From Treponema sp. (GTDB taxonomy: Bacteria > Spirochaetota > Spirochaetia > Treponematales > Treponemataceae), in the NCBI GenBank assembly GCA_024690865.1, contig JAILON010000071.1:1-45979 (forward strand): 45,979 nt of DNA. The letters are read 5' to 3'. Of the stretch, positions 11,617 through 44,492 are shown piece by piece. Both the position numbers and the translations under genes were made by a program. Position 1 is the stretch's first letter. Each line of letters begins with the position of its first letter. The notes under the pieces are model-generated. The model was given only the letters and a program-made list of their open reading frames with translations, ran no database searches and was not told the DNA's origin.

Positions 11617-11663
11617 TGCCGTGGCCGCCCCTTCCGGGCGGTCTTTTTTTTCAAACTGACTGT

Positions 11664-13564: not shown

Positions 13565-13593
13565 ATTGTCGCTCTTTATGCTAGTTTTGTCAA
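13565..13593 (-). promoter_or_regulatory. Promoter for the candidate small RNA
   Basis: Reverse-strand TTGACA (13593-13588) and GACAAT (13570-13565) are 17 bases apart. The promoter overlaps the last codon of the deaminase-like gene. Confidence 0.5.
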
Positions 13594-14414
13594 GCACCTG
13601 GACAGAACATCGCAAAGGCGAATGTTGCAGCGGCAAGTACCGTTATCAGAATGAAGTATGCAAGCCCTGTCCGTTTTCCCTTCCTCCGTCCGTTTACGAA
13701 GAAAAGAACGATGCCCATCAGGATGGAAATAGAGAGGGCAAGTGAAAGGTTTACCACTACTACCGATTTGATTGACTCGGCAGATTTTGCCAGAATGTTA
13801 AAGTCAATCGTTATGAACGAGAACACGGCGACGAGTATCCCCATAAGCGTGAGGACGTTTCCGTAGATTCTTTCGGTCAAGGAATCGAGGTTTTCCCGCT
13901 CTTCCTTTATGTCCTTCATCAGCTTCGTATATTCGCCCGTGTATCCGCCCAGCCCCTTGTAGTTCGTCTCCTCAGCGAAAGATGCCCCTGTCTGCTTGTC
14001 ATAGGTCTGGGACGGCACGGAGGAAAGCTTTTCGAACATAATCTGGGCAATAGGGAAGCCCTTGTGCAGGGAAAAGACTTTGTCCGATATGTTCTGGACG
14101 CGGAGAAAGGTTTTCGTTGTGTGTCCGGGGATGTAGACTGGAGCGTCAACAGAAAGTCCCGCCCTCATCACGGAATTGCGCTGGATAACCTTTCCGCAAA
14201 GATTGTTGGGGATTGAAATCGTCTCCTCGCCCTTCACGTAGACGGTCTGCCCTGGCTCAAGCTCAAGGCTGGCACACTCTTTGCCGTCTGCGTTGATAAC
14301 ACTGTCAATCGTAAGCTCGTAGGCTATGCCTTTAAGGCTCTCTGCCCTGTAGTTCTCGGTGATGAGCTTGCCCTCTGAGACGAGCTTCCTGATTTCGTTA
14401 TCCGTCAGAATCAT
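13590..14414 (-). CDS. dCTP-deaminase/dUTPase-like domain fused to membrane helices
   Basis: The 274-residue product has two parts. Residues 1-160 match the Dcd/dUTPase fold: M-I-L-T-D-N-E-I opening, R79-N-S-V-M-R-A-G-L-S-V-D at the position of the R-S-S-x-R-x-G nucleotide/catalytic motif, and F-P-I-A-Q-I-M-F near 120. At the usual catalytic L-E-L-x-N motif it reads L104-R-V-Q-N, so the general-base glutamate appears replaced by arginine. Residues 161-183 are a charged helical linker, and 186-205, 216-240 and about 253-271 are hydrophobic membrane segments. It has its own promoter, AGGAG site and terminator on the strand opposite to the phage operon, the layout of a lysogeny-expressed moron. 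A nucleotide sensor coupled to the membrane is inferred, perhaps defensive; deaminase activity is doubtful. Confidence 0.75.
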   Translation of the reverse strand: MILTDNEIRKLVSEGKLITENYRAESLKGIAYELTIDSVINADGKECASLELEPGQTVYVKGEETISIPNNLCGKVIQRNSVMRAGLSVDAPVYIPGHTTKTFLRVQNISDKVFSLHKGFPIAQIMFEKLSSVPSQTYDKQTGASFAEETNYKGLGGYTGEYTKLMKDIKEERENLDSLTERIYGNVLTLMGILVAVFSFITIDFNILAKSAESIKSVVVVNLSLALSISILMGIVLFFVNGRRKGKRTGLAYFILITVLAAATFAFAMFCPGA

Positions 14415-15479: not shown

Positions 15480-15896
15480 ATGACTTCTCGCTATGAGAAT
15501 TCTCAGCGGCTGCTCTGGAACATGAAGTACGCCTGCTTCTTCCTTTCGCTCCTGTCCATAGCGGAGGAGGAGCGGGAGCGGCTGGGACTTGCCGGCACGA
15601 AGGTTGACCTTCTGGACGCGGTGAGGCACTGCCGGGAGAAGGGCTGGATTGACGGCGAGTTTGAGGTCCTGTACGACTGCAAAATACTTGCATGGCTGAC
15701 CGGGAGGAAAGTCACGAAGGCTGTCCTGCAGGCCCCGGGGGTCATCCACGGCAACCAGTACACAATCGAGAAATGGCTGGCGAAGGACGGGGCGTCAAAC
15801 CATTTCCGCCGTCGCTACTTTGACGTGTACAACGGAAGCCGGACGGTCAAAGAGGGAACGAGGATGTGCTACTACGTGTACACCTTCAAGGAGTAG
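15480..15896 (+). CDS. Candidate papain-fold cysteine peptidase (possible endolysin)
   Basis: ATG 15480 follows CGGAGG. The 138-residue protein has C19 at the start of a hydrophobic helix (Y-A-C-F-F-L-S-L-L), H108 in S-N-H-F and D115/N118 in Y-F-D-V-Y-N-G-S, in the order and spacing of C39/papain-like peptidases (Cys helix, His on a strand, Asp/Asn after it). From memory it also resembles spirochaete DUF261-type proteins. It lies immediately before the holin-like gene and no lysozyme, amidase or transglycosylase is visible elsewhere in the window, so a wall-cleaving role is inferred. It could instead be an unrelated protein with a chance triad. Confidence 0.5.
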   Translation: MTSRYENSQRLLWNMKYACFFLSLLSIAEEERERLGLAGTKVDLLDAVRHCREKGWIDGEFEVLYDCKILAWLTGRKVTKAVLQAPGVIHGNQYTIEKWLAKDGASNHFRRRYFDVYNGSRTVKEGTRMCYYVYTFKE

Positions 15897-15904
15897 GTGA
15901 CAGA

Positions 15905-16177
15905 ATGGATATTGAAAGCTTCATAGACGTCAAGGCAATCATCCAGATTGCGCTGTTTATGGTCGGGTTTACGCAGATGGTCAAGCAGCTGTTTTCGGTG
16001 AAGCACCCGAAGCTGAAAATCCTGCTGACCATCGCGGTCGGAATCGGGGGCGGGCTGCTGCTCCAGTTCCTGCCGACGTGGATTTTCACGACGCTTCTGG
16101 GCGTGTCCGTTGGCGTGATCTTCTACGACAACGTGCTCAAGCTCTTGGAAAAACTTGTCCGGGGGCTTGAGCAGTGA
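15905..16177 (+). CDS. Holin-like membrane protein
   Basis: The 90-residue protein has three hydrophobic stretches (about residues 10-26, 38-58 and 60-77) and a charged C-terminal tail (K-L-L-E-K-L-V-R-G-L-E-Q), a typical small holin. ATG 15905 is chosen over an upstream TTG because GGAGTAGGTGA precedes it. It would make the inner-membrane holes that release or activate the lysis enzyme. Its stop overlaps the first of a chain of micro-ORFs. Confidence 0.7.
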   Translation: MDIESFIDVKAIIQIALFMVGFTQMVKQLFSVKHPKLKILLTIAVGIGGGLLLQFLPTWIFTTLLGVSVGVIFYDNVLKLLEKLVRGLEQ

Positions 16178-16698: not shown

Positions 16699-16769
16699 GC
16701 CTTTGTAGCACAACGGTAGTGCGGGCGGTCCGTAACCGTCTGGTGGGCGTTCGATTCGCTCCGGGGGCT
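16699..16769 (+). tRNA. tRNA-like gene with anticodon loop TCCGTAA
   Basis: A full cloverleaf can be drawn: acceptor GCCTTTG (16699-16705) with CGGGGGC (16762-16768, three G-U pairs); D-arm GCAC-AACGGTA-GTGC (16708-16722); anticodon arm GGCGG-TCCGTAA-CCGTC (16724-16740); T-arm GGGCG-TTCGATT-CGCTC (16745-16761). The loop would give anticodon CGT (Thr), but position 33 is C instead of the near-invariant U, and no CCA is encoded. It may be a modified phage tRNA, a decoy or a decayed gene. Confidence 0.55.
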
Positions 16770-21745: not shown

Positions 21746-22288
21746 ATGGTGAGGCTCGACAAGGCTTTCTGGCCGTCCACCGTCTCCGTCCACGGGGAGG
21801 ACTTCCCCGTCCACACGGAGCACTGGTTCTGGCTGACGTTCTCCCGCCGCCTGCGGGAGAATGCCCCGCTCAAGGAATTCGACTTCCTCTATGACGGAGA
21901 CTCGCCCGGGGACCGCGAGGCGGGATTCCTCGCCCTGATGGGCTTCTACGCCCCGCCCCAGTCCCTTCCCCGCGACATCGGCGGAGGGGACGGCGGGCCG
22001 GTCGTGGACTTCACGCAGGACGAGGACCTGATTTATTCGGCCTTCCTGCAATGCTACGGAATCGACCTGAAGGCAGAGGCCTGCCACTGGCACAAGTTCC
22101 TTGCTTTGTTCCGTGGACTGCGCGAGACCAAGCTGAACGACGTGATGGGCTACCGCTCCTGGGAAGAGGGCGACAAGGGCGGCTACGAGAAATTCATGCG
22201 CGACATGAAGAACGCCTGGCGGCTGGAAGAGCCGGAGACGGCAGAGGACAAGGCCGCAAAGGAAAAGTTCGAGGAGACCTTCGGCTAG
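21746..22288 (+). CDS. Tail assembly chaperone, Gp15 family
   Basis: ATG 21746 is chosen with GGAGCGCGGGG upstream. In the 180-residue product, residues about 95-145 (L-I-Y-S-A-F-L-Q-C-Y-G-I-D then C-H-W-H-K-F-L-A-L-F-R-G-L) match the Gp15 family of tail chaperones. It would escort the tape measure protein. No slippery site with a second downstream plus-strand frame was found, so a G/GT-type frameshift is not supported. The stop overlaps the end of a reverse-strand micro-gene. Confidence 0.75.
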   Translation: MVRLDKAFWPSTVSVHGEDFPVHTEHWFWLTFSRRLRENAPLKEFDFLYDGDSPGDREAGFLALMGFYAPPQSLPRDIGGGDGGPVVDFTQDEDLIYSAFLQCYGIDLKAEACHWHKFLALFRGLRETKLNDVMGYRSWEEGDKGGYEKFMRDMKNAWRLEEPETAEDKAAKEKFEETFG

Positions 22289-22419
22289 TCAGAAACGGGG
22301 GCTTCGGCCTCCGTCTCCTCATTTTCAAGGGATGCCTTGCCAAGCTTCCAGACTACGAAAACAGCGAGGAAGAACAGAACCGGAGAACTGCACGAAAAAA
22401 GAAGTCCCAGGCCTATCAT
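22285..22419 (-). CDS. Antisense membrane micro-protein A (44 aa)
   Basis: It starts at 22419 with AGGAGGTGCTTT upstream and is coupled to micro-protein B (ATGA). A hydrophobic first half (G-L-L-F-S-C-S-S-P-V-L-F-F-L-A-V-F-V-V-W) is followed by a K/E-rich tail. It is the last of five reverse-strand micro-genes and ends exactly at the stop of the tail chaperone gene. Confidence 0.6.
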   Translation of the reverse strand: MIGLGLLFSCSSPVLFFLAVFVVWKLGKASLENEETEAEAPVSD

Positions 22420-22556
22420 AAAGCACCTCCTAAACTTTCTTCGTTGGACGGCTTTTCCCCTTCAACCGGGATGTTCTTGAATACCCAGCGAAAGAATACT
22501 GCTAGGACGACAAGGAAAAGAAAAGCTGAGAATCCCGATGTAAACAAAACAATCAT
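22416..22556 (-). CDS. Antisense membrane micro-protein B (46 aa)
   Basis: GGGAGGTTCTTT precedes its ATG. One membrane helix (F-S-A-F-L-F-L-V-V-L-A-V-F-F) is followed by R-W, K and an acidic tail, like micro-protein A. A and B form a two-gene unit with a degenerate copy of the shared promoter region at about 22593. Confidence 0.6.
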   Translation of the reverse strand: MIVLFTSGFSAFLFLVVLAVFFRWVFKNIPVEGEKPSNEESLGGAL

Positions 22557-22614
22557 AAAGAACCTCCCGTTTCCCTCAAAGTGACTGTGTATATGACAGC
22601 ACGTTCCTACGAGG

Positions 22615-22704
22615 CTAATCTTCTTTGTTCGGCTTTTCCTTCCTAAGAACCCAGAGGATAAAAGCTACCGCAAGAAAAACGCTGAGGGGCGAAAGGCATA
22701 TCAT
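22615..22704 (-). CDS. Antisense membrane micro-protein C (29 aa)
   Basis: ATG 22704 has AGGAGGTGCTTACT upstream. The peptide starts with C-L-S-P-L-S-V-F-L-A-V-A-F-I-L-W and ends R-K-E-K-P-N-K-E-D: a single helix with a charged cytoplasmic-like tail. TATCAT (22745-22740) is a good -10, but the -35 is poor. Confidence 0.6.
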   Translation of the reverse strand: MICLSPLSVFLAVAFILWVLRKEKPNKED

Positions 22705-22772
22705 AGTAAGCACCTCCTGTCTTATGGGCTTCTGTGTATATGATAGCACGTTTCTGAGGGGAAACGGGTATG

Positions 22773-22892
22773 TCATTTGGGATTGCCTTCTTCGTCTATG
22801 AACAAATCCTTGTGCTTAATGCACCAAACGAGGCCCACAACGGCTGTAATCGTGAAACAAATCGGTGAAACACACAGGCAAAGTGCAGCCAT
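22773..22892 (-). CDS. Antisense membrane micro-protein D (39 aa)
   Basis: AAAGGAGGTTGCC precedes the ATG. The helix begins C-L-C-V-S-P-I-C-F-T-I and carries four cysteines; the tail is H-K-D-L-F-I-D-E-E-G-N. It shares the S-P at the helix start with C and E. It has a near-consensus promoter (22956-22929). Confidence 0.65.
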   Translation of the reverse strand: MAALCLCVSPICFTITAVVGLVWCIKHKDLFIDEEGNPK

Positions 22893-22928
22893 GGCAACCT
22901 CCTTTAAAAGCTGAAACTGACTATATAT

Positions 22929-22956
22929 ATGATAGCACGTATTTGAGGTTTGTCAA
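22929..22956 (-). promoter_or_regulatory. Promoter of antisense micro-protein D
   Basis: Reverse-strand TTGACA (22956-22951), a 16-base spacer and TATCAT (22934-22929). The -35 box overlaps the start codon of the duplicated tape-measure remnant. Confidence 0.65.
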
Positions 22957-23048
22957 TGGCAAAGAAAGCGGAAGTCGTAACTAAATTCGGTGCAGATACA
23001 AAAGAAGCCGCTAAAAAGCGGCTTCTTTTTTCTCTTTTCGAAAGGTGA
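22956..23048 (+). pseudogene. Duplicated tape-measure 5' end (remnant)
   Basis: The 30-codon frame begins M-A-K-K-A-E-V-V-T-K-F-G-A-D-T-K-E-A, clearly similar to the tape-measure start M-A-S-K-A-K-G-E-V-A-L-K-A-T-A-D-T-K-N-A. The sequence upstream (TTTGAGGTTTGTCAATGGCA) matches that before the true gene. The copy then runs into a terminator hairpin and stops. It marks a duplication that carried a micro-protein unit with it. Confidence 0.6.
23001..23033 (+). terminator. Intrinsic terminator inside the tail operon
   Basis: GAAGCCGC-TAAAAA-GCGGCTTC (23004-23025) is a perfect 8-bp stem followed by TTTTTT. It faces the plus-strand late operon between tail chaperone and tape measure, and on the reverse strand is followed by UUUU, so it may act in both directions. 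Confidence 0.8.
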
Positions 23049-23078
23049 CTATATGTGTGGTGGTGCAGGCAGGGAGAG

Positions 23079-23192
23079 TCAGTCGTCGTCATCGGAATTC
23101 TTTTCGGGAGTATTAAAGATACCGAGTTTTCCCATGATAATCAACGTGACAATGGCAAGGATAATGCAGAACGGTGATACAACTACAAACAT
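23079..23192 (-). CDS. Antisense membrane micro-protein E (37 aa)
   Basis: AAGGAGGGGTTGTC precedes the ATG. A hydrophobic helix (V-V-V-S-P-F-C-I-I-L-A-I-V-T-L-I-I-M) is followed by G-K-L-G-I-F-N-T-P and a terminal D-D-D-D. It has the best promoter of the cluster (23257-23230). The reverse transcript would end at the bidirectional hairpin at 23004-23025. Confidence 0.65.
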   Translation of the reverse strand: MFVVVSPFCIILAIVTLIIMGKLGIFNTPEKNSDDDD

Positions 23193-23229
23193 GACAACCC
23201 CTCCTTAATTGTTCAATGTGACTATATGT

Positions 23230-23257
23230 ATAATAACACATATTTGGGGATTGTCAA
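23230..23257 (-). promoter_or_regulatory. Promoter of antisense micro-protein E
   Basis: Reverse-strand TTGACA (23257-23252), a 16-base spacer and TATTAT (23235-23230). The -35 overlaps the A of the tape-measure start codon, so RNA polymerase here would compete with plus-strand transcription or translation initiation signals. Confidence 0.7.
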
Positions 23258-25983
23258 TGGCAAGCAAAGCGAAGGGCGAAGTTGCCCTAAAGGCGACTGC
23301 TGACACAAAAAATGCTGAACAGGGATTTAGCAAGTTAGCTTCGAAAGTTAATTCGTTTTCAAAGACACTTCAAGGACTTGGCAAGTCTGGTGGCCCAATG
23401 CAGGGACTTGCAAATCTTGGCAGTGCTGTATCTGGTCTCGGCATGGCTTTTTCCGGTGTAACAAAGGCCATTGGCTTTACCGTTGAAAAACTGAAGGAGT
23501 GTGAAGGGGCTTGGAATGTCCAGCATGATGCGGAGGTAGCCCTTGAGGTCGCCGCAAAGAACAATCCGTTCCTGAACGGACAGTCCGTCAAGGGGCTCAA
23601 AGAATTTGCCGGGCAGCTCCAGGCGGTCTCCAATTTCGGTGATGAGGAACTGCTCCCCATGATGAGCCAGCTGGCGGCTTCGGGCCGTACCCAGTCCGAG
23701 ATAATGGACATTATGTCCGCCGCCGTTGATGTTGCGGCATCCGGTACGATGAGCCTTGAGTCGGCCGTAAAGGGACTTAATCAGACGTATTCAGGAAGCG
23801 TCGGTGAGATGGGCAAGACGCTCCCCGCCCTGAAATGTCTGACCGATGAACAGCTGAAAAACGGCGAGGCCGTCAAGATGGTTGCCCAGGCCTACAAGGG
23901 GCAGGCGGAGGCAGCCGCTGATGCGGCAAAGCAGCGGGCAAACGCCTTTGGCGACATAAAGGAGGTCATTGGGGCTTGGGTAACAGATGTGTTTGAACCC
24001 TTGCGGAAGGCCGAGGCAAAGGTCTTTGGCGATATGGCCACCCACCTGCGGGAAAATTACGACCATGCAAAGAACCTCAAGGAAGCCTTGAAGGAGGCCA
24101 AGGACGTCCTGAAAAACGGGGCGGGGGATGCCTCCGCAGACAACTTTGAGTCTCTCAAGGCAAAGCGGCAGGCCATCAAGGAGGGCATAAAGGAGGCAAA
24201 AAGCAAGCTCAGTGAGAAGCAGATAGCGCAGGTCTACAGCGGCGAGGGCTTCTGGAACAAGACCCAGACGGAGCTGGGGAACCTGGAAACCGCGCTCAGG
24301 GAGATTGAGCCGCTGTACAGGGTTGCCCTTGAGAACCACACCAAGGCAGAGCTGGCCGCCCGTGCGTCTGCCGATGCCGCCAAACTTGCGGCTGATAAGG
24401 AGAAAGCGCGGGCGGAAGCGGCTGCCGCCGCTGCCGATGCCGCAGCGAAAGACAGCGAGACCCGCGCCCGCCTGCGCAAGTCCTACGAGGACAGCGTGGC
24501 CGCCGTCCTGAAGGAAATAGAGGCCCGCCGTCAGCTGGGGGAGGCCGTTTCGCAGGAAGAGGAAGACCGCGCCGAATACGAGGCCCGCTACAAGGGCTAC
24601 CTGAACCTGATAAAGAGCGCGAACGGCCTCATTTCCGGCAACTACGAGACCGAGGTCGCCTACCGCGAGAAGATAGCGGAGCTCGCCAAAAAGGTCGCCG
24701 AGTACGACAAGGCCTCCGGCAACGACGGCAAGGATGCCGCCGAAAAGTGGAAGGACTACCAGAAGGCGCTGGAAGACGTCAACAAGGAGTTCGGCAAGGA
24801 AAGCCCCGCGAAGAAGGAGAGCGAGCGCATCCTTGAGCTCAAGAGCAACCTCGCCGCCATGTACGTGGAGCTGGAGTCAATTTTTGACGGCGACACGGAC
24901 AAGATCAAGGAGGCGGCCGACGCCTATGACGTGGCCGCCAAACAGCTGAACGAAGCACACAGGCGTGCCGTCGAGGCCGAGGAAGAGGCTACCAGGAAGG
25001 CCGTTCAGGACGCGAAGGACAAGGTCCATGCCGCCGGAGCCTTCACGGAAAAAGAAGAAAAGTCCAGCACTCCCCTGCAGGATGCCGTCGCCCAGAGGCA
25101 GGAGGCCATGCGGGCGGAGATGAAGGCCCTGATCAAGTCCGTGGAATGGGAGCAGATGACCGCCGACCAGAAGAGGGAAATCTGGGACAGCTACTACGTC
25201 GACCTTGCCCGGATGAGCGACGACATGTATGAGGCGTGGAACATGGACGCGATAAACAACATGGAGTCGGTCTCCGAGACCCTTGTCGCCGCCACGTCCA
25301 AAATTTCCTCCGCATTGCAGAGCGCGGGCGACAGCGCTATACAGAGGGCGGAAGACCAGAAGAACCGTGAGATTGCCATCTGGGAGGAGAAATACCGGGC
25401 GGGGGAAATTTCCGAGCAGGAGTACCAGGACAAGAAGACTGAGCTGGAGAAGGATGCCGCCAAGAAGGAATACCAGATAAAGAACTGGCAGTGGGCCGCA
25501 CAGGTCGCCGAGGCGACGGCGAACATTGCCGTGGGCGTCACAAAGGCAATCGCGGAGAATGGCTGGCCCGCCGGTGCGGTCATGGCGGCGATGGCTGCCG
25601 CCGCCGGTGCCATCCAGCTTGCCACCGTCGTGTCCAATAAGCCCCAGCCTCCCGCCTTTGAGAAGGGCGGTATCGTCCCCGGTACGAGCTGGTCCGGCGA
25701 CAAGGTGCAGATACGCGCCAACTCCGGCGAAGGCGTGTTCACTCGCGGGCAGATGAAGGCCCTTGGACTCATGGCCCGTGGCGAGGGCCGCAAGGAGGGC
25801 GGTACGCAGGTGAACGTGGAGAACAACGCCTCCAACCTGGTCGGGGTATCCCCGCAGGTGGACGGAAACAGGATAAAGCTTCTCATCGATGCGCGGGTGA
25901 ACGAGTCCATGCGCAAGGGACGGTACAGCCAGTCGCTGGCTCAGGCGAGCGACAGCATGACCGGGAAATACTATGGGATATAA
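23257..25983 (+). CDS. Tape measure protein
   Basis: The 908-residue protein sets tail length and helps DNA entry. It has long A/K/E-rich coiled-coil stretches (about residues 270-480 and 500-690) and hydrophobic segments near the ends (about 60-85 and 765-800). The typical C-terminal block G-G-I-V-P-G-T-S-W-S-G-D-K-V near 808 leads to a short globular end. ATG 23257 with TTTGGGGATTGTCA upstream was chosen because the remnant copy at 22956 conserves exactly this start. The first 700 bases are less GC-rich than the rest. Confidence 0.92.
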   Translation: MASKAKGEVALKATADTKNAEQGFSKLASKVNSFSKTLQGLGKSGGPMQGLANLGSAVSGLGMAFSGVTKAIGFTVEKLKECEGAWNVQHDAEVALEVAAKNNPFLNGQSVKGLKEFAGQLQAVSNFGDEELLPMMSQLAASGRTQSEIMDIMSAAVDVAASGTMSLESAVKGLNQTYSGSVGEMGKTLPALKCLTDEQLKNGEAVKMVAQAYKGQAEAAADAAKQRANAFGDIKEVIGAWVTDVFEPLRKAEAKVFGDMATHLRENYDHAKNLKEALKEAKDVLKNGAGDASADNFESLKAKRQAIKEGIKEAKSKLSEKQIAQVYSGEGFWNKTQTELGNLETALREIEPLYRVALENHTKAELAARASADAAKLAADKEKARAEAAAAAADAAAKDSETRARLRKSYEDSVAAVLKEIEARRQLGEAVSQEEEDRAEYEARYKGYLNLIKSANGLISGNYETEVAYREKIAELAKKVAEYDKASGNDGKDAAEKWKDYQKALEDVNKEFGKESPAKKESERILELKSNLAAMYVELESIFDGDTDKIKEAADAYDVAAKQLNEAHRRAVEAEEEATRKAVQDAKDKVHAAGAFTEKEEKSSTPLQDAVAQRQEAMRAEMKALIKSVEWEQMTADQKREIWDSYYVDLARMSDDMYEAWNMDAINNMESVSETLVAATSKISSALQSAGDSAIQRAEDQKNREIAIWEEKYRAGEISEQEYQDKKTELEKDAAKKEYQIKNWQWAAQVAEATANIAVGVTKAIAENGWPAGAVMAAMAAAAGAIQLATVVSNKPQPPAFEKGGIVPGTSWSGDKVQIRANSGEGVFTRGQMKALGLMARGEGRKEGGTQVNVENNASNLVGVSPQVDGNRIKLLIDARVNESMRKGRYSQSLAQASDSMTGKYYGI

Positions 25984-35747: not shown

Positions 35748-35974
35748 TTAGTAAGGAAGGGGAATCCCGTGCACAGGCTTGGCTGGGATTCCCACCGACT
35801 GGTGGTTGTTCCTGCCGTCAAGCCATTTCGTGATGTAGTGATGTAATATCCGACTATTACACCCAGCATGGCGAGCAGGAATCCAAACTCCTTGTCGGCA
35901 AAGTAAATTTGAACCAAAAATGCAGGTGTCAAGTTCCAGATGATGCCGAAACAGGACGGAAATGCTGAGGCCAT
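35748..35974 (-). pseudogene. Small membrane protein broken by an 8-bp tandem duplication
   Basis: From ATG 35974 the frame encodes two hydrophobic stretches (F-G-I-I-W-N-L-T-P-A-F-L-V and F-G-F-L-L-A-M-L-G-V-I-V-G-Y-Y-I-T). It then meets GTGATGTA repeated in tandem at 35830-35845, which shifts the frame. Removing one copy restores K-W-L-D-G-R-N-N-H-Q-S-V-G-I-P and a stop at 35748, a natural hydrophilic tail. The start overlaps the cas3 start in the opposite direction. The protein is unidentified; holin-like two-helix proteins with a K-W-L-D tail look similar. Confidence 0.55.
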
Positions 35975-38676
35975 CAAAACGAGCTGAAACGTGCAACGAC
36001 TGGGACGTTGACCTGTCTGATTTTGTCTTTTTGAGCAAGACTGTTCAGGGGGCGGGCGACGAAAAGCTACCGGGGCTTGATGTCGAAACCCATTGCCGCA
36101 TAACGGGTTACGTTGCCTCCTCTATCATTTTGCGTATCCCCGAAAAACTCCGCAGAATCCTGTTTGTCAGAAGCTCCCCGCTTGCAGCCGCAGTCCACGA
36201 CATAGGTAAGATAAATCCTGATTTTCAGAAAATGATTTATGAGGCCTGCTCTCCCGGCTCAGACGGCAAGGTCAGTATGGCCTTGTCGCGGCTTTCGGGC
36301 ATCGGGGCAAATTCCGCAAATGCGAAGCGGGCGGGATGTTCCTTCCATGCGAAAGTGACACAGGTTTCGCTTGCGGCTGCCCGGGCGCACTTAAAGAAGT
36401 ATATTGCACTGATAGAAGGAATGCATCATGGGTTCAGGCCGGTGGATTCCATAGCCTATCCTGAAGAACGCTACGGAGGAGACGGCTGGACGCAGGCACG
36501 GCATGCGCTCTTGGAGAAGTTGGAATCCGAATTCAGCACTGGGGCGGCAGACTGGCAGGATGTGCAGAGTTGGGATGAGGCCTGTGTCCTTGGTGGTCTG
36601 GTCATAGTCGCGGACTGGATAGCTTCGGGCGGGTGTTTTGCGGGACTGAAGGATTCGGACATGCTTGGCAGGGACGAAATCGTCACGATGGCGGACAGGG
36701 CCGTCCGTGATGCCGGATTCCACAGGCTTTCCGTGATGCAGGGGCTGTCGTTCAGGGACATATTCGGCTTTGCTCCCCGGGATGTGCAGAAATCGTTCTT
36801 TGATTCGGTGAGCGGTCCCGGCGTGTACGTGCTTGAAGCTCCCATGGGATTGGGAAAGACGGAGGCTGCCTTGTATGCGGCGTACCGGGTTTTGAGCCGG
36901 GGACTTGCGACTGGACTTTACTTCGCGCTGCCGACGCAGCTCACGTCAAACAGGATATACGAGCGCGTCGAGCTTTTCCTGAAAAAAATACTTTCATCCC
37001 AGAATGAAGATGATTCGCTCCGCCTGCTCCATGGAGCTGCCTGGATGGAGCGGACGTTCGGAGAGGACGGCGGCATGGGAAAAAGCTGGTTTGACGCAAA
37101 AAAACGCGGTATCCTCGCCCCGTTTGCGGTGGGGACCGTTGACCAGGCCCTGATGTCCGTGATGGACGTGAAGCATAGTATGGTGCGTTCGTTCGGCCTT
37201 GCGGGGAGAGTCGTCATCCTTGATGAGATTCACAGTTATGATGCCTATACCGGCACAATCCTCAATGCGCTTGTTGAGAGCCTGAGAAAAAGCGCATGCA
37301 CCGTTATCCTGCTCAGTGCGACCCTCACCGCACGGCAGAAGGAAGAAATCCTGCAGCTTCCTGCCGGGCGGGACCTTAATCAGGCCTATCCGCTGGTGAC
37401 GGCACAGGCTTCCGCCGTGGTGGATTCGGAGGACCCCTGCCGGACAGACCGCATAGAAAGCGACCCCCTGCAGGAGACGGCTTGCGAGGCCGGGCGGGGA
37501 AATACGGTTGCCGTCAGCTTTTGTGACGACCGGGGAAAGGCATGTGAGACGGCGCTGGATAAGGCTTTTTCCGGCCAGCAGGTCCTGTGGATTGAAAATA
37601 CGGTGCAGGATGCGCAGGATGTTTTCAAGCTTATCGCCGGAAGATGCGGTACGGACGTAGAATGCGGACTGGTGCACTCCCGTTATGAGAAGGCCTGCAG
37701 GTCAGAGAATGAGGCGTACTGGGTGGGTCTGTATGGCTCTGACGGCAAGGCCCGCCGCAGCGAGAAGGGGAGGATTCTTGTGGGAACGCAGGTCCTGGAG
37801 CAGTCGCTCGACATAGACGCGGACTTCCTGCTGACGGCTGTCTGCCCGACGGATATGCTGCTGCAGCGTATGGGACGCTTGTGGCGGCATGCCTCCAACG
37901 CCTCTGTACGTCCTTCCGGTTCGGAATGTGCCTGTTTGATTATCGCCCCCCGCTTTGAGTCCGTCTGCAATGAAAAGAATGTCTTTGGCGCGAGCGGGGC
38001 CGTCTACAGCGAGTATGTCTTGTGCCGGACCTGCGAGCAGTGGAAAGAGCTCCGCTCAGTCTCTTTGCCGGGCGACATCCGACGGCTGCTGGAGGACACG
38101 TATTCCGACCGCGAGGAAAGCGGCCTGTGGAAATCATACAAAGATGAGATGGAAAAAAAGAAAAAGCTGCTCGAAGGCTTTGCTAGGCTTACCCGGTCAA
38201 AGGAGATTGCGTTTGACAATACGAAAACCGAATCCCAGGTTCAGACACGCTATTCAGAGCTGGAGAGCGTCTCTGTCCTTTTGCTCAGGTCCTTTGAAAA
38301 GGAAGGTGCTGGTCATAGGCTGCGCTTTTGTTCCGGGGAGTCCATACTTATGCCTGGAACAAGCCGTGATATTCCTGAACGGGAACGCATGAGAATCAGC
38401 AAGGTCCTGATGGAGCATTGCGTGAGCGTCGCCGAGAAGAACGCCCCCGAATATGAAAAAAATATTGAAGTGTTCTCGGATTACTTGTATACTGGTCGTG
38501 ATGACGATGAGCATCCGCTGCGATGCGCGATTGTGGGAGACGATTCCATGCTGTATACGATGCAAAAGCTTCCGTGCGGCGGTGAGAACGATGACGGGAG
38601 CAGAAGCCGCTTTTATTACAACCTGCTGCTCGGCTATCAGGTAGGAAGGGAGGGTATTCATGGAAAACAGATATAA
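35962..38676 (+). CDS. cas3: CRISPR-associated helicase-nuclease Cas3 (type I-E)
   Basis: The 904-residue protein is the target-degrading nuclease-helicase recruited by Cascade. The N-terminal HD nuclease has H79-D80 in A-V-H-D-I-G-K and further His/Asp (M-H-H-G-F, V-A-D-W-I-A-S). The SF2 helicase has G-L-G-K299-T (motif I), D421-E-I-H (motif II), L-L-S-A-T-L-T (III) and Q-R-M-G-R-L-W-R-H (VI). The C-terminal accessory domain follows. The N-terminus up to about residue 20 is uncertain, since it overlaps a divergent small gene and no strong ribosome site is present; a later start is possible. It overlaps cse1 by 17 bases. Confidence 0.95.
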   Translation: MLRPSKRAETCNDWDVDLSDFVFLSKTVQGAGDEKLPGLDVETHCRITGYVASSIILRIPEKLRRILFVRSSPLAAAVHDIGKINPDFQKMIYEACSPGSDGKVSMALSRLSGIGANSANAKRAGCSFHAKVTQVSLAAARAHLKKYIALIEGMHHGFRPVDSIAYPEERYGGDGWTQARHALLEKLESEFSTGAADWQDVQSWDEACVLGGLVIVADWIASGGCFAGLKDSDMLGRDEIVTMADRAVRDAGFHRLSVMQGLSFRDIFGFAPRDVQKSFFDSVSGPGVYVLEAPMGLGKTEAALYAAYRVLSRGLATGLYFALPTQLTSNRIYERVELFLKKILSSQNEDDSLRLLHGAAWMERTFGEDGGMGKSWFDAKKRGILAPFAVGTVDQALMSVMDVKHSMVRSFGLAGRVVILDEIHSYDAYTGTILNALVESLRKSACTVILLSATLTARQKEEILQLPAGRDLNQAYPLVTAQASAVVDSEDPCRTDRIESDPLQETACEAGRGNTVAVSFCDDRGKACETALDKAFSGQQVLWIENTVQDAQDVFKLIAGRCGTDVECGLVHSRYEKACRSENEAYWVGLYGSDGKARRSEKGRILVGTQVLEQSLDIDADFLLTAVCPTDMLLQRMGRLWRHASNASVRPSGSECACLIIAPRFESVCNEKNVFGASGAVYSEYVLCRTCEQWKELRSVSLPGDIRRLLEDTYSDREESGLWKSYKDEMEKKKKLLEGFARLTRSKEIAFDNTKTESQVQTRYSELESVSVLLLRSFEKEGAGHRLRFCSGESILMPGTSRDIPERERMRISKVLMEHCVSVAEKNAPEYEKNIEVFSDYLYTGRDDDEHPLRCAIVGDDSMLYTMQKLPCGGENDDGSRSRFYYNLLLGYQVGREGIHGKQI

Positions 38677-40147
38677 CCTGCTCGACGAGCAGTGGATTCC
38701 TGTCGTTGGGGAAGGAAAGGTTGGGCTGAGGCGGATTTTCACGGACGCGGGCCTTACCGCCCTTGGCGGGAATCCCATAGAGAAAATAGCCATGTTCAAG
38801 CTGCTCCTTGCCATAGCCCAAACCGCATGTACGCCGGAGGACGAGGACGGATGGAAGGCCCTTGGCTGTGACGGTATGAGAAAAGCCGTGCTTGACTACC
38901 TTGACAGACACCGGGACTGCTTCTGGCTCTACGGTGAAAGGCCGTTCCTGCAGATGCCGGAGATTCAAAAGGCGAACAAGCAACATTACGGAGCCTTGAA
39001 AATGGAGGTCGCCGTTGGAAATACTACGGTCGTGACGCAGATTCAGTTAGAGACTCCTTTGGACGATGCGGAAAAGGCCTTGCTCCTGATAGTACAGATG
39101 AATTTTGCATTTGGTGGAAAGAAAGTCGATAACTCTATCGTCCTTTCAGATGGATATGAAAAGTCAAAGACCGGGAAGCCTGGGACTTCATTGGGGTTCA
39201 TGGGGTTCCTTCATTCATTTGTTATGCTGCCGACGCTGCTGGAATCAATTTACGTGAATCTCTTCCCGAAAGAAAGTATTTTAGGGTTTGGCGGGATGTT
39301 TCCTGCCGGAGTTGGTACAGCTCCATGGAAAAAAATGCCAGCAGGGGAAAAAGATAGCGTTGCGGACATGTATAAGAAGTCCTATATGAGCCGGTTGATT
39401 TCCCTGAACCGTTTCTTATATCTTTCAGAGGATGGAGCGCATTACTCTGAGGGCCTGCAATTACCGGATTATGCAGAATCTTATTGTGACGCATCTATAG
39501 CCGTTGATTTTTACGCAAAACCAAAACCGAAGGTTATATGGACTAATCCGGAACGAAGACCCTGGAGGCAGCTGACTGCTTTGCTTGCTTTCCTGGACGG
39601 AAAAAACTCTTCATCCTTTATATGCTATCAGCTGAAAGCCGTGTTTTCGTCAGCCAGGTTAAACGCATACCCATCTTTTATAATCTGGTCGGCAGGAGTG
39701 AAGGTCAGCAGCAATGCCGGAGAACAATATCTGACAGGTACTGATGATTTTGTTGAGTCCGAAATCCAATTTCAGGATTATTTCCGCTGTGATTCGCAAA
39801 ATTTCTATGAGTCACTTGAATCTGCTATGGCGGAATTGGAAAGAATGAATAAGGTTTTATATGCTTGCGTCAGCTCATATTATAAGAATTTGAAGGTTGA
39901 CGGAAAAAGCTTTGCCTCCAATGCAACCAGCGTGTTCTGGCAGCTCTGCGAGCATGAATTCCAACATGTGGTCGATATATGCTCCGGTCCGGATGCGCAG
40001 GAAGGACTTCAGCCGCTGTACCGGAAGTTCTGGTCTTTTGTCAACCGGATTTATGACGAGAGCTGTTCCAGGGATACCGCAAGGCAGATGGAGGCATGGG
40101 CAAAGAACAGGCCGGGGATAAAAAACGTGAACAAGGAGGAGAGATAG
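38660..40147 (+). CDS. cse1: Cascade large subunit Cse1/Cas8e
   Basis: The 495-residue protein matches the CasA/Cse1 pattern: N-L-L-D-E-Q-W-I-P-V near residue 5, W-L-Y-G-E-R-P-F-L-Q near 92 and an N-terminal core with the long loop, then a C-terminal four-helix bundle. It recognises the PAM and recruits Cas3. The middle part (about 39000-39900) has lower GC than the flanking cas genes. Confidence 0.92.
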   Translation: MENRYNLLDEQWIPVVGEGKVGLRRIFTDAGLTALGGNPIEKIAMFKLLLAIAQTACTPEDEDGWKALGCDGMRKAVLDYLDRHRDCFWLYGERPFLQMPEIQKANKQHYGALKMEVAVGNTTVVTQIQLETPLDDAEKALLLIVQMNFAFGGKKVDNSIVLSDGYEKSKTGKPGTSLGFMGFLHSFVMLPTLLESIYVNLFPKESILGFGGMFPAGVGTAPWKKMPAGEKDSVADMYKKSYMSRLISLNRFLYLSEDGAHYSEGLQLPDYAESYCDASIAVDFYAKPKPKVIWTNPERRPWRQLTALLAFLDGKNSSSFICYQLKAVFSSARLNAYPSFIIWSAGVKVSSNAGEQYLTGTDDFVESEIQFQDYFRCDSQNFYESLESAMAELERMNKVLYACVSSYYKNLKVDGKSFASNATSVFWQLCEHEFQHVVDICSGPDAQEGLQPLYRKFWSFVNRIYDESCSRDTARQMEAWAKNRPGIKNVNKEER

Positions 40148-40663
40148 ATGGAATCTGAGCAGAAGGAAACGCTCGCGAAACGCGTATTTGCGAGGCTTAA
40201 AAACGACTCCGCTTTCCGGGCTGCCCTTAAGCGGGCGGACAATCCCGCTACGGAATACCAGTGCTGGGAATACCTGGCGGATTACGGTGTTCATCTGGAC
40301 AGAAACTGGGAACGGCTTCCTTACGCAACAGTTCTTGCCGCCATTGCAAAGAGCGGGCGTGAAAGCGACGGATCTCTTGGACTGGGAGCGGCTTTGTGTG
40401 CGGCATATGAGTGGAAAAGGGAAAGTGATCCTGCCCGCTCAAAGCTCCGACGGATTCTTGCCTGTTCTGACGTGCCGGAGCTTTGCTCGGTTTTGCGGCC
40501 TGTCCTGCAGTTCATCGCCGGTAAGAACGTTGCTGTCAGCTATCAGTCCCTGCTGGATGACCTGCGCTATTTTGGTGACGGGGAGAGAGTCAAGTCAAAG
40601 TGGGCGCAGCAGTTTTACGGAACTTCAACCGATGCGGTAAATGCGGAGGAGGAAAATGCATGA
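40148..40663 (+). CDS. cse2: Cascade small subunit Cse2/Cas11e
   Basis: The 171-residue helical, basic protein follows cse1 immediately. The pattern (F-A-R-L; A-D-Y-G; G-L-G-A-A-L; L-R-R-I-L-A-C; L-L-D-D-L-R-Y-F-G) fits Cse2, which lines the belly of Cascade and holds the displaced strand. The stop overlaps cas6e (ATGA). Confidence 0.88.
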   Translation: MESEQKETLAKRVFARLKNDSAFRAALKRADNPATEYQCWEYLADYGVHLDRNWERLPYATVLAAIAKSGRESDGSLGLGAALCAAYEWKRESDPARSKLRRILACSDVPELCSVLRPVLQFIAGKNVAVSYQSLLDDLRYFGDGERVKSKWAQQFYGTSTDAVNAEEENA

Positions 40664-41274
40664 AAGCGACCCTTTTGCGAATCTCAAGAAAGCAGTACAT
40701 GGAGCTGCGCAGGCAGAACAAGGACTTCTTCGATGCCTATTCGCTTCATAAAAAGATATACGACCTGTTCCCAAAGAAAGAAGGCGTGACCCGGGACTTC
40801 CTGTACCGCGTTCTGGATGCGGACGCGGAGGAGAAGCGAATCCTGATTTTTTCCGAGGATGCCCCGCAGTCCTGTGACTTTGCCGAAATGGAGGTCCGGG
40901 ATATACCTGAGGCCTTTCTTGAAGCTGACTATTACGGCTTTGACGTGCAGATAAACCCCGTTAAGCGCTCGAAGGAAACGGGGAAGATTGTACCCGTAAA
41001 GGGGAGGGATGCCCTTGCGGAATGGTTTACGGCAAAGGCTCCGTCTTACGGCTTTGAGGTGATTCCGGGGTCTCTTGCCGTAGGCGATACGAACATCGTG
41101 CAGTTCAACAAGGACGGAAAGCCGGTCACGCTTGCAAAGGCTGTCTTTACCGGAAGGATGAAGGTGACCGACCGGGAGCAGTTCAAAAAGTCCGTGAACG
41201 AGGGAATAGGCAAGGGAAAGGCGTTCGGCTTTGGCCTCCTGCAGGTCATGCCTCTTCAGAACGGGCTTATATGA
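40660..41274 (+). CDS. cas6e: CRISPR RNA endonuclease Cas6e
   Basis: The 204-residue protein cuts the repeat hairpin in pre-crRNA. It has the tandem-ferredoxin layout, D-A-Y-S-L-H30-K-K (candidate catalytic His in the Y-x-L-H motif) and the C-terminal glycine-rich loop G-K-G-K-A-F-G-F-G-L-L. ATG 40660 (4-base overlap with cse2) is chosen for M-K-A-T-L-L-R-I-S. Its place before cas7 differs from the E. coli order, where it follows cas5. Confidence 0.92.
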   Translation: MKATLLRISRKQYMELRRQNKDFFDAYSLHKKIYDLFPKKEGVTRDFLYRVLDADAEEKRILIFSEDAPQSCDFAEMEVRDIPEAFLEADYYGFDVQINPVKRSKETGKIVPVKGRDALAEWFTAKAPSYGFEVIPGSLAVGDTNIVQFNKDGKPVTLAKAVFTGRMKVTDREQFKKSVNEGIGKGKAFGFGLLQVMPLQNGLI

Positions 41275-41313
41275 TGCTAATAAACGAGAAAATTTTTTGT
41301 AGGAGATAGAATT

Positions 41314-42489
41314 ATGAAAGAGAAGAACAAGTACACAAATAAGAGAATCGAATTCCACATCTTGCAGTCATTTCCGGTGACCTGCCTGAACCGCGACGAT
41401 GTCGGCGTACCAAAGACTGCCGTTGTCGGCGGCGTGACCCGTGCCCGCGTCTCAAGCCAGTGCTGGAAGAGGGCGGTGCGGATGGCGATGCAGGATGTCG
41501 GGGGCGTGCAGCTTGCCAAACGAACAAAGCTCATTGGGAACCTGATAGGAGATGCCTGCAAGAAACTTGGCGCGGATGATATATCTGCGAGAAAGTGCGG
41601 GCTTTCCGTAGAATCCATTTTCAGCAAGGAAGCACGGAAGAAGTTTGAGTCTGCACAGAAAAATGGAGAATTCTTGTTTGATGAGTCAGATGCTCCTTCT
41701 TCCGATGATTCTGAGGACTCAAAATCCGACACCCTGATTTTTATGGGGCAGAAAGAGATAGAAGCTTTGGCCCATAAATTTGAGGAGAACGCTTTTGATT
41801 ATGAAAAGGTCTTTCCTCTTTCTGAGAAAAAACCAGAGAAAATTCTGGAAAAGCTGATAGGAAAAGCACAGTTTGCGCTCACTGATGAGCTTGACGGCTT
41901 GGACATCGCTCTGTTCGGCCGCATGATTGCACAGGCTCCTACCTTGGACGTTGAGGCCGCCGCTTCGTTCAGCCATGCCATCTCTACCCACAAAGTGACC
42001 AACCAGATTGAGTTTTTCACGGCCCTCGATGATTTTTCAGAGGCCCAGGGATCAGCCCACATGGGAACGCTTGAGTTTAACGCCGCGACTTATTACCGCT
42101 ACATCACCCTTGATTTGGGACAGCTGTATGAGACAATGGGGAACAATGATGAGTTTTTTCCCCAGGCAATAGAAGCCTTTATCAAGGCCCTCTTCATTGC
42201 CGTTCCCAGTGCCAGGCAGACCTCTCAGGCAGGATTCTGCACCTGGGATTATGCCAAAGTGCTCGTCAGAGAGGGGCAAGGGGTGCAGCTTTCTTTTGAG
42301 ACTCCGGTAAAGGCCCGGGACGGCGGTTACCTGCAGCCCAGCATTGAGGAAGTGAAGAATCAGCTTGCTAAAAAAGAAAAACTTTCCGGCAGCCTGTTCG
42401 GGAAAATCAAAGAATTTGAGTTTGGTATCAACGAGGATTTCAGCATTGACCATCTGATTGAAGGCGTAAAAAGCGCGGTGAAGGCCTAG
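41314..42489 (+). CDS. cas7: Cascade backbone Cas7e (Cse4/CasC)
   Basis: The 391-residue protein has F-H-I-L-Q-S-F-P-V-T-C-L-N-R-D-D near residue 11, G-V-T-R-A-R-V-S-S-Q-C-W-K-R (the RNA-binding signature) near 42, and the G-T-L-E-F-N-A-A-T-Y block near 250. It forms the filament along the crRNA. It is longer than many Cas7e proteins because of a charged D/S/E insert (about 110-145). A 39-base gap with TAGGAG precedes it. Confidence 0.93.
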   Translation: MKEKNKYTNKRIEFHILQSFPVTCLNRDDVGVPKTAVVGGVTRARVSSQCWKRAVRMAMQDVGGVQLAKRTKLIGNLIGDACKKLGADDISARKCGLSVESIFSKEARKKFESAQKNGEFLFDESDAPSSDDSEDSKSDTLIFMGQKEIEALAHKFEENAFDYEKVFPLSEKKPEKILEKLIGKAQFALTDELDGLDIALFGRMIAQAPTLDVEAAASFSHAISTHKVTNQIEFFTALDDFSEAQGSAHMGTLEFNAATYYRYITLDLGQLYETMGNNDEFFPQAIEAFIKALFIAVPSARQTSQAGFCTWDYAKVLVREGQGVQLSFETPVKARDGGYLQPSIEEVKNQLAKKEKLSGSLFGKIKEFEFGINEDFSIDHLIEGVKSAVKA

Positions 42490-42492
42490 CGG

Positions 42493-43218
42493 ATGGAAAC
42501 CAAGTTCTTGCTCCTGTGGTTGGAGGCTCCCCTTCAGTCATGGGGTTTTGATTCAAAATTCGGACGGCGCGACACACTGGGTTTTCCGACAAAATCCGGA
42601 GTGCTCGGACTTCTTCTGTGCGCGCTCGGTGCCGGTGGCGAGCAGAGGGAGCTTTTGGCGCGTTTTGCGGGCTTGCGGCAGACAGTGATTTCATTCCGCG
42701 ACAAGGACAGGGCCCGGCCTCTTGTCCTGCACGACTTTCAGATGATTGGCGCGGGGTATGATGACAAGGACAAGTGGGAGAAGCATCATATTCCCAAAAC
42801 CTCCGAAGGAAAAGCCGCTGTCGGCGGAGGCACGAAGATGACTCACCGCTACTACCTGCAGGATGCCGTCTTTGCCGTCATCCTTGAGATTCCCGCCGAT
42901 ATTGCGGATGCGTGTGCCGGAGCACTGAAAAATCCCGTGTGGCCCCTTTTCCTTGGCCGGAGGTGCTGTGTGCCAAGCGACTTTGTATATCAGGGAACTT
43001 TCGGGACGGAATCCGATGCGGAAGCGGCCGCGATGCAGAAGGCCCTGTCCCATGAGTCACGGAAGCTTCTTGCGGATTTCCGCGTGGTTGACGGCGAGTC
43101 TGAGGACGGGGATGCCTTCACGCTCAACGATGTGCCCGTTCAGTTTGGCAGGGTCAAGAAATATCAGGACAGGCGCGTCACGAAAATTCTGCTGAACATG
43201 CCGGATGGTGAACCGTAA
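42493..43218 (+). CDS. cas5: Cascade subunit Cas5e (CasD)
   Basis: The 241-residue protein opens F-L-L-L-W-L-E-A-P-L-Q-S-W-G, with F-G-R-R-D-T then P-T-K-S-G-V-L-G-L-L, the Cas5 RAMP signature. It caps the 5' handle of the crRNA. A Y-Y-L-Q-D-A-V-F motif near 119 is also typical. It shares one base with cas1 (TAATG). Confidence 0.93.
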   Translation: METKFLLLWLEAPLQSWGFDSKFGRRDTLGFPTKSGVLGLLLCALGAGGEQRELLARFAGLRQTVISFRDKDRARPLVLHDFQMIGAGYDDKDKWEKHHIPKTSEGKAAVGGGTKMTHRYYLQDAVFAVILEIPADIADACAGALKNPVWPLFLGRRCCVPSDFVYQGTFGTESDAEAAAMQKALSHESRKLLADFRVVDGESEDGDAFTLNDVPVQFGRVKKYQDRRVTKILLNMPDGEP

Positions 43219-44078
43219 TGGCAGGGGAGTCGCACGGAAGGCTTCTGATACAGGTCACGCATGATACGCTTCCTCAGATAAAGGACAGGTATCCGTTCCT
43301 GTATCTTGAGCGTGGCAGGCTCGAGATTGATGATTCGAGCGTGAAATGGATTGACAGCGAGGGGCATGTTGTCCGGCTTCCTGTTGCGACAATCGCTACC
43401 GTGCTGCTTGGGCCGGGAACGAGTCTCACCCATGAGGCCGTGAAAGTCATGGCGGCCGCGAACTGCACGATCTGCTGGGTCGGTGAGGATTCCCTGCTTT
43501 TTTATGCGGTGGGGAAAACTCCTACTGCCAATACCCGCAATTATCGGAGACAAATGAAGATTGCCGCCGATTCCAAAAAGTCTCTTGAAGTTGCCCGGCG
43601 GATGTATGCCCGCCGTTTCCCTGAAGCAGAGCTTGCCGGAAAAAAGCTGAAGGAAATGATGGGGATGGAAGGCTATCGCGTCAGGCAACTGTATGAGGCA
43701 AAGGCCGTGCAGTACGGCGTGGGATGGAAAGGACGGAGCTATGTTCCCGGCAAGATGGAGCTGAGCGATTTGACGAATCAGATCCTGACAGCCTACAATG
43801 CCGCGTTGTATGCGATTATCACTTCATGCGTGTATGCGATGGGTTATTCTCCGCATATAGGGTTCATTCATTCTGGAAGTCCGCTCCCGTTTGTGTATGA
43901 CCTTGCGGATTTGTACAAAGAGGAGCTGTGCATTGATTTGGCTTTCAAGATGACCTTTGAGATGGCTGGCGTTTACAACAAGTATCAGGTAATGACAGAA
44001 TTCCGGGATCGGGTCATCAACACAAGGCTCCTTGAAAAAATCAATCCGGACATCGAGGAGATGCTGGGGAAAGACTGA
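43218..44078 (+). CDS. cas1: CRISPR adaptation integrase Cas1 (I-E)
   Basis: The 286-residue product has the metal-binding residues E151 (M-E-G-Y), H218 (F-I-H-S-G-S) and D231 (D-L-A-D-L-Y-K). Their spacing (67 and 13 residues) equals that of the E. coli enzyme (E141, H208, D221). With Cas2 it inserts new spacers at the leader end. No disabling change is visible. Confidence 0.95.
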   Translation: MAGESHGRLLIQVTHDTLPQIKDRYPFLYLERGRLEIDDSSVKWIDSEGHVVRLPVATIATVLLGPGTSLTHEAVKVMAAANCTICWVGEDSLLFYAVGKTPTANTRNYRRQMKIAADSKKSLEVARRMYARRFPEAELAGKKLKEMMGMEGYRVRQLYEAKAVQYGVGWKGRSYVPGKMELSDLTNQILTAYNAALYAIITSCVYAMGYSPHIGFIHSGSPLPFVYDLADLYKEELCIDLAFKMTFEMAGVYNKYQVMTEFRDRVINTRLLEKINPDIEEMLGKD

Positions 44079-44374
44079 TGGTCGTGGTGATTGCGAATGA
44101 TTTGCCCCCTGCCGTACGGGGGCGGATGAAGCTCTGGTTCGTTGAGCCGAGGACAAATATTTTTGTCTCAGGCATAAAGGACTCCGTTGCGGATGACGTG
44201 ATAGACTATTTGATGAAATCCTGTCCCCCTTCATCCGGCCTGCTTGTGTTCCAACGGATTAACAAGGCTCCGGGATATAAGATATGGGGAAGCGGGGATC
44301 CTGATAAAGAAATCGGTGAGATTTCTGGCCTCCAGCTTATCATAGAAAAAACTATGGCGATTGCCAGCTCTTGA
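44078..44374 (+). CDS. cas2: CRISPR adaptation protein Cas2 (I-E)
   Basis: The 98-residue protein starts M-V-V-V-I-A-N-D-L-P and has V-R-G-R-M-K-L-W-F-V-E, the Cas2e (CT1978-type) signature. It forms the dimer core of the Cas1-Cas2 complex. It overlaps cas1 by one base and is the last gene before the leader and array. Confidence 0.93.
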   Translation: MVVVIANDLPPAVRGRMKLWFVEPRTNIFVSGIKDSVADDVIDYLMKSCPPSSGLLVFQRINKAPGYKIWGSGDPDKEIGEISGLQLIIEKTMAIASS

Positions 44375-44492
44375 CCATATCATTCTTTATAAGGTAGGAT
44401 ACGGCATCTAAAAAACTATTTGCTTTTCAAAAGTGATAGGGTGATACGCTATATATGGTGTATTATAACGACTCTATACACGATATCTTGGT
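44375..44492 (+). promoter_or_regulatory. CRISPR leader
   Basis: This AT-rich, non-coding 118-base stretch lies between cas2 and the first repeat. The most perfect repeats are at this end and the degenerate ones at the other, which marks it as the leader. TATATA and TATTAT stretches at 44450-44466 may include the array promoter; I cannot fix a -35 box. Confidence 0.75.

Follow-up and report, generated by a model that had tools for sequence, protein, structure and literature searches.

Between the tail chaperone genes (gp13/14) and the tape measure protein (TMP) gene (gp16) of the Escherichia coli phage HK97 lies gp15, an exclusion moron encoding 62 amino acids, with one N-terminal transmembrane (TM) helix followed by basic residues and with a terminator of its own. 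The gene is absent from the sister phage HK022. HK97 gp15 has been proposed to block DNA injection, and the tail tube/TMP genes of HK022 let HK97 hybrids escape it (PMC10883804). In a 45,979-nucleotide stretch of Treponema sp. DNA (contig JAILON010000071.1 of assembly GCA_024690865.1, positions 1 to 45,979, called the window below), the identical slot in the late region of a putative temperate siphophage holds an array of five antisense genes for single-TM peptides. Unlike this array, HK97 gp15 is encoded in the sense direction and as a single copy, has no detectable sequence similarity to the Treponema peptides, and is associated with neither arrays nor fossil TMP starts.

Several other systems share part of this layout. 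The phi80 defense gene taiEcA is, like the array, an antisense moron within a late operon, there a Q-dependent one; it is expressed in the lysogen and lowered by late transcription (PMC11364771). It differs from the array in encoding a 26-kDa protein that targets the tail fiber J protein, in lying upstream of the packaging genes, and in being a single gene with a counter-defense partner. Tab of Pseudomonas aeruginosa phage JBD26 is likewise the product of a small late-region prophage moron, and its target is the TMP (PMC10884400), but it has 83 amino acids, is encoded between terminase genes, blocks tail assembly and has an anti-Tab. P22 SieA and TP-J34 Ltp are larger, unrelated in sequence and located elsewhere in their genomes; alterations of the tape measure protein overcome Ltp (PMC10883804). 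The strings of EsaG/TsaI immunity genes of the type VII secretion system resemble the array in being tandem, non-identical small genes with recombination turnover, according to the available part of that account (PMC9484751), but they serve bacterial antagonism rather than phages and offer an analogy for array growth only.

A preliminary description of the window regarded the layout as without a described counterpart. That was too strong, since HK97 gp15 has the same slot and peptide type, and defense morons placed antisense in late operons are known from phi80 Tai (PMC11364771); what is new is an antisense, multi-copy, accreting array, none being described in the literature searched. The same literature yielded no characterized exclusion system of spirochaete phages, and the array is not mentioned in the available part of a survey of 38 Treponema prophages (PMC11144348). 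Here we describe the anatomy, recurrence and growth of the array and suggest, by analogy with these systems and at slightly better than an even chance, that it encodes stacked, lysogen-expressed inner-membrane peptides for superinfection exclusion.

Anatomy of the array

The left border of the slot is a Gp15-family (PF06854) tail protein that occupies the place of the tail assembly chaperone, and the right border is the TMP gene. Five minus-strand open reading frames (ORFs) of 29 to 46 codons lie between them, at 22285-23192, where the preliminary description had placed them:

21746-22288, plus strand: Gp15-family tail protein, left border of the slot (Pfam PF06854, E 2e-19; PHROG 706)
22285-22419, minus strand: P1, 44-amino-acid peptide with a single TM helix; its start and the P2 stop overlap in ATGA
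22416-22556, minus strand: P2, 46-amino-acid single-TM peptide; DNA repeat D3 in the tail is common to P2 and P3
22615-22704, minus strand: P3, 29-amino-acid single-TM peptide; its homolog in the related locus L002 adjoins the TMP start
22773-22892, minus strand: P4, 39-amino-acid single-TM peptide
23079-23192, minus strand: P5, 37-amino-acid single-TM peptide, TMP-proximal
23257-25983, plus strand: TMP gene, bounding the slot on the right (tail length tape measure, PHROG 3336, E 2e-9)

All five ORFs start with ATG behind a strong Shine-Dalgarno site with 6-8 matching bases (AGGAGGTG for P1 and P3, GGAGGT for P2, AAGGAGGT for P4 and AAGGAGG for P5), as had also been claimed, and P1 is probably translationally coupled to P2, given the overlap of its start with the P2 stop. 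Under a strict rule, four ORFs pass in the window gap; 1000 dinucleotide-shuffled versions of it gave 0.011 on average, and none gave four or more. The C/S-P start that was described for the peptides is present as S-P in four of the five (P2 lacks it) and is not general among relatives.

Recurrence, slot specificity and selection

The window genome belongs to the same family as Treponema metagenome-assembled genomes from ruminants and horses. A Gp15 protein is encoded in 24 of 274 genomes of this family, and many of their Gp15/TMP gaps contain antisense peptides. Family genomes combined with IMG/VR and GTDB loci gave 198 distinct Gp15 loci, of which 32 of spirochaete type were curated; these contain 54 intact antisense, ATG-start, single-TM peptides, with 1-5 per phage. 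Automatic gene calls skipped peptides with a weak ribosome site or none (L055, L210, L345, L125), so that curation was by eye; an antisense lipoprotein in L130 was left out of the counts, and a GTG ORF in L122, poor in Shine-Dalgarno sequence, was discarded because it overlaps a fossil TMP start. Leaderless antisense peptides occur in at least two further loci, L204 and L125, the latter matching the locus of the cultured strain T. ruminis RU1, whose Gp15/TMP slot encodes a leaderless peptide of 40 amino acids.

These genes are highly specific to one strand and one position. Across 54 gaps, 31 minus-strand ORFs were observed against 0.14 in shuffles, with a single one on the plus strand, and strict antisense peptides number 42 in 13.7 kb of gap versus 2 in the 308 kb of phage DNA that flanks the gaps (both strands together). 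Some Treponema phages (for example, L006 and L014) have a gap of at most 55 nucleotides without peptides, and Clostridia relatives with the same Gp15 family have mostly short gaps, in which no convincing antisense peptides were found. A search of INPHARED returned no DNA match.

All 54 peptides have a helix within the first 8 residues. Lysine or arginine is absent before the helix in 98% of them and present just after it in 91%, and 72% have an acidic tail; by the positive-inside rule, applied to hydropathy and charge only, this placement predicts an N-out/C-in topology in the inner membrane. Pooled pN/pS (nonsynonymous relative to synonymous change) is 0.31, with no indels, over 13 homologous comparisons (binomial p 3e-11), and the P1 homolog in L002 is identical at 42 of 44 residues with just 2.5 nonsynonymous differences. 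On these comparisons, the peptides are under purifying selection and the ORFs are genes. Reading frames, starts and ribosome sites are conserved in the homologous phages, a comparison that the preliminary description had proposed and that came out in its favor. The ORFs might instead be spurious passengers on antisense promoters that merely dampen tail-gene transcription, and such interference is plausible for promoters that face the late operon; given the selection, the excess over shuffles and the uniform topology, this is almost certainly not the explanation.

GC content is below that of upstream sequence in all 32 gaps (0.44 in the window gap, against 0.57 for the whole window). Morons are typically autonomous transcription units, and the array genes have predicted promoters and a terminator, are missing from the peptide-less gaps of some relatives, and differ from the flanking genes in base composition. 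Searches of Pfam, PHROG and PADLOC assigned no family to the peptides.

Promoters that oppose the late operon

The regulatory elements predicted in the window, together with a fossil TMP start among them, are as follows:

22593-22598, minus strand: TGTCAT, a decayed -10-like remnant in the promoter copy that precedes P2 (repeat family D1)
22740-22745, minus strand: extended -10 TATCAT of P3, with the -35 lost; in the L002 counterpart the -35 sits at the TMP start
22929-22956, minus strand: P4 promoter TTGACA-16-TATCAT with extended -10; its -35 shares bases with the start codon of the fossil TMP
22956-23009, plus strand: fossil tape measure start (MAKKAEVVTKFGADTKEA...), tblastn E 1e-4, 83% identity to a TMP N-terminus
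23000-23029, minus strand: terminator hairpin 3' of P5, readable in both directions; minus-strand RNA fold of -28.1 kcal/mol, z -5.1
23230-23257, minus strand: P5 promoter TTGACA-16-TATTAT with extended -10; its -35 overlaps the TMP start

Two consensus and two decayed promoters had been proposed, in agreement with what we find: TTGACA-16-TATNAT with an extended -10 precedes P4 and P5 (11 of 12 consensus matches), while P3 and P2 retain, as diverged copies, just the duplicated -10 region of the promoter block. Among the 32 curated loci, the spacer that separates the TMP start from the nearest peptide has an antisense promoter score of at least 9 in 29 cases, compared with 3 on the sense strand, and the -35 of the antisense promoters sits at the TMP start or the TMP ribosome site. 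Judged by these motifs, the slot promoters are of vegetative, sigma-70 type. Such a promoter, opposing the late operon, would be active while the lysogen is quiet and, in lytic growth, would presumably be run over by sense transcription of the late genes.

The preliminary description offered exclusion factors, toxins or lysis regulators as functions. Exclusion fits best, with HK97 gp15 in the same slot, and the other two fit poorly because constitutive-type promoters lie antisense to late genes and the copies are stacked. Hydrophobic toxins of a type I toxin-antitoxin-like system, for which late sense RNA would serve as antitoxin, would be in keeping with the size and single TM helix of TisB/Ldr-type toxins and with the complementarity of late sense RNA to the peptide genes. 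However, near-consensus antisense promoters and strong ribosome sites, mostly without any plus-strand promoter, would leave the toxin on in the lysogen in up to five stacked copies, and a dedicated antisense RNA promoter over the gene was not found beyond the 3 plus-strand scores among the 32 spacers, making toxins very unlikely. Antiholin- or pinholin-like lysis regulators, a role that would suit small single-TM phage proteins, have scarcely any likelihood: neither the strand nor the promoter class is that of late lysis genes, another part of the late region has its own holin-like ORF (15866-16177, identified by eye), and remnants that have lost their tail genes keep the peptides.

The motif TGACTRTA near the antisense promoters was considered as an operator and rejected, being a late-strand element that is present also in peptide-less phages. 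It occurs on the plus strand of the window at 11656, 14481, 17963, 22917, 23045 and 23218, and in about 830 kb of related phages it is found 160 times on the late-gene strand versus 14 on the opposite strand. It is concentrated ahead of the TMP gene, sometimes lies immediately 5' of late-gene ribosome sites, and could possibly be a late promoter, processing or regulator site.

Fossil tape measure starts and growth of the array

The fossil at 22956 is a broken second TMP start (repeat D2) with 84% DNA identity to the TMP start region of L002. That locus, whose Gp15 DNA is 93% identical to the window's, has P1 and P3 only, with P3 adjoining its TMP start. Fossil TMP starts are also present in L122 and L111, and thus in three of the four arrays with at least four peptides; a further candidate, L215, was rejected as a mis-called TMP start. 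The window fossil provides the P4 -35, and that of L122 appears to provide the -35 of the second peptide there, a role in peptide promoters that would explain why the fragments persist, just as the loss of its TMP start by P3 would explain its decayed promoter. Across Gp15 plus the distal peptide, and once more over the stretch that runs from the promoter into the TMP gene, L113 and L055 are near-identical; between flanks 97.5% and 91.6% identical, the body of the proximal peptide ORF has been replaced. Accretion of cassettes by recombination at the TMP 5' end is well supported by these comparisons, since three of the four largest arrays keep a fossil TMP start. Repeated gain of lysogeny-type membrane peptides, as first suggested from the window alone, is borne out by the fossils, the paralogous promoters, the ORF-by-ORF swaps and the intact peptides in remnants described below.

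Distant phages with a common peptide homolog have TMP residues 1-80 that are more similar (permutation p 0.0002), and in the same test neither Gp15 nor TMP residues 80-330 are more similar. This fits a peptide and TMP 5' end that move as one module, a pattern that may reflect linkage and does not in itself demonstrate functional pairing. It would also be in line with interference in tail assembly, in which the lysogen's peptides hit the newly made TMP of invaders and are silenced in the phage's own lytic cycle; Tab is a moron product that targets the TMP (PMC10884400), and the antisense Tai is reduced when Q drives late transcription (PMC11364771). Tail assembly, however, is cytoplasmic, and the peptides are all membrane-anchored with little outside the helix. 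No candidate anti-factor was found, and no search was aimed at one. P4, P5 and three further antisense proteins had no match to a known defense model in PADLOC at E 0.01, a comparison to which Tab and Tai themselves did not belong. We consider assembly interference quite unlikely.

In L116, L231 and L244, which elsewhere share about 87-95% identity, the middle part of the TMP (residues about 240-500) is hypervariable, as though exchange had served to change the inner-membrane entry partner.

Prophages, remnants and proposed superinfection exclusion

Seven other hosts were tested, and in six of them an integrase or recombinase gene lies within 11-26 kb of the Gp15 locus. Because the loci sit in bacterial chromosomes, mostly near such genes, the phages are by this genomic evidence temperate. 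Prophage remnants in three host genomes (L030, L198/L419 and L201) have a degenerate Gp15 fragment, no TMP gene, and 1-3 intact peptides; L030 and L198 directly adjoin ssrA, the transfer-messenger RNA gene. Intact peptides in tail-less remnants therefore likely benefit the lysogen. (Remnant L419 also contains HigBA-like and ImmA/repressor-like genes.) The benefit could be another form of lysogenic conversion, in which the peptides bind host inner-membrane proteins and adjust them, or the envelope, to the benefit of host fitness, with any phage resistance as a by-product. Single-TM micropeptides commonly modulate larger membrane proteins, and vegetative-type promoters and retention in remnants would suit such a role; the strict tie to the TMP slot and the rapid peptide turnover within it look less like an unchanging host function than like conflict between phages, and we regard this alternative as unlikely.

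We favor superinfection exclusion, with cassettes that would each consist of a promoter, a ribosome site and a bitopic N-out/C-in membrane peptide of 25-103 amino acids. From the inner membrane, the peptides would most likely keep the genomes of superinfecting siphophages from entering, by acting on the incoming tape measure or conduit, or on a host inner-membrane protein used by the conduit, as proposed for HK97 gp15. A new cassette would arrive with a new TMP 5' end via recombination at the TMP start, and older cassettes would remain, some with a fossil TMP start still giving the -35, so that several peptides accumulate. A tentative and rather doubtful extension is a heritable memory of exclusion, in which each peptide excludes phages of the TMP type with which it arrived, the array then recording past TMP types as stacked specificities, like orphan immunity arrays.

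Several observations weigh against superinfection exclusion. One chromosome, that of genome G062, has two prophages whose slots are near-identical and whose peptides do not differ in sequence, a pair that strong homotypic exclusion should have prevented unless it arose by duplication. No sequence similarity to HK97 gp15 or to any named exclusion family was found; HK97 gp15 matches PHROG 5031 at 5e-29, and none of the tested peptides does, so that the likeness to gp15 lies in the chaperone-to-TMP location and in a small inner-membrane protein with an N-terminal TM helix, as judged by hydropathy and charge. Peptide and TMP similarity were not significantly correlated in a global Mantel test, and the association with TMP residues 1-80 may reflect no more than physical linkage. 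Finally, no integrase was detected on the window contig.

Neighboring features

The Gp15/TMP slot elsewhere also houses a lipoprotein and a membrane dCTP-deaminase-like protein. The former is the 119-amino-acid antisense product in L130 (L022). The latter, antisense in L026/L129, is a homolog of a 274-amino-acid antisense protein inside the head-gene operon of the window (13590-14414, minus strand; Pfam DCD, E 4e-15), which has C-terminal membrane helices, an extended -10 promoter and no PADLOC match. A tRNA-Thr (CGT) gene lies inside the phage late region (16699-16769, plus strand), a BrnT/BrnA-like toxin-antitoxin pair with a weak BrnA match lies beside the phage (34904-35456, minus strand), and a type I-E CRISPR-cas locus (35962-45094) directly adjoins the late region.

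Conclusions

The peptide genes fall below the usual annotation cut-offs. If our interpretation is correct, the TMP-adjacent siphophage slot would be a recurrent site of membrane exclusion peptides across very distant hosts, from E. coli with HK97 to Treponema. Antisense placement would act as a simple switch, on in the lysogen and off in lysis, and the fossil TMP starts would constitute a readable record of tape measure replacement.
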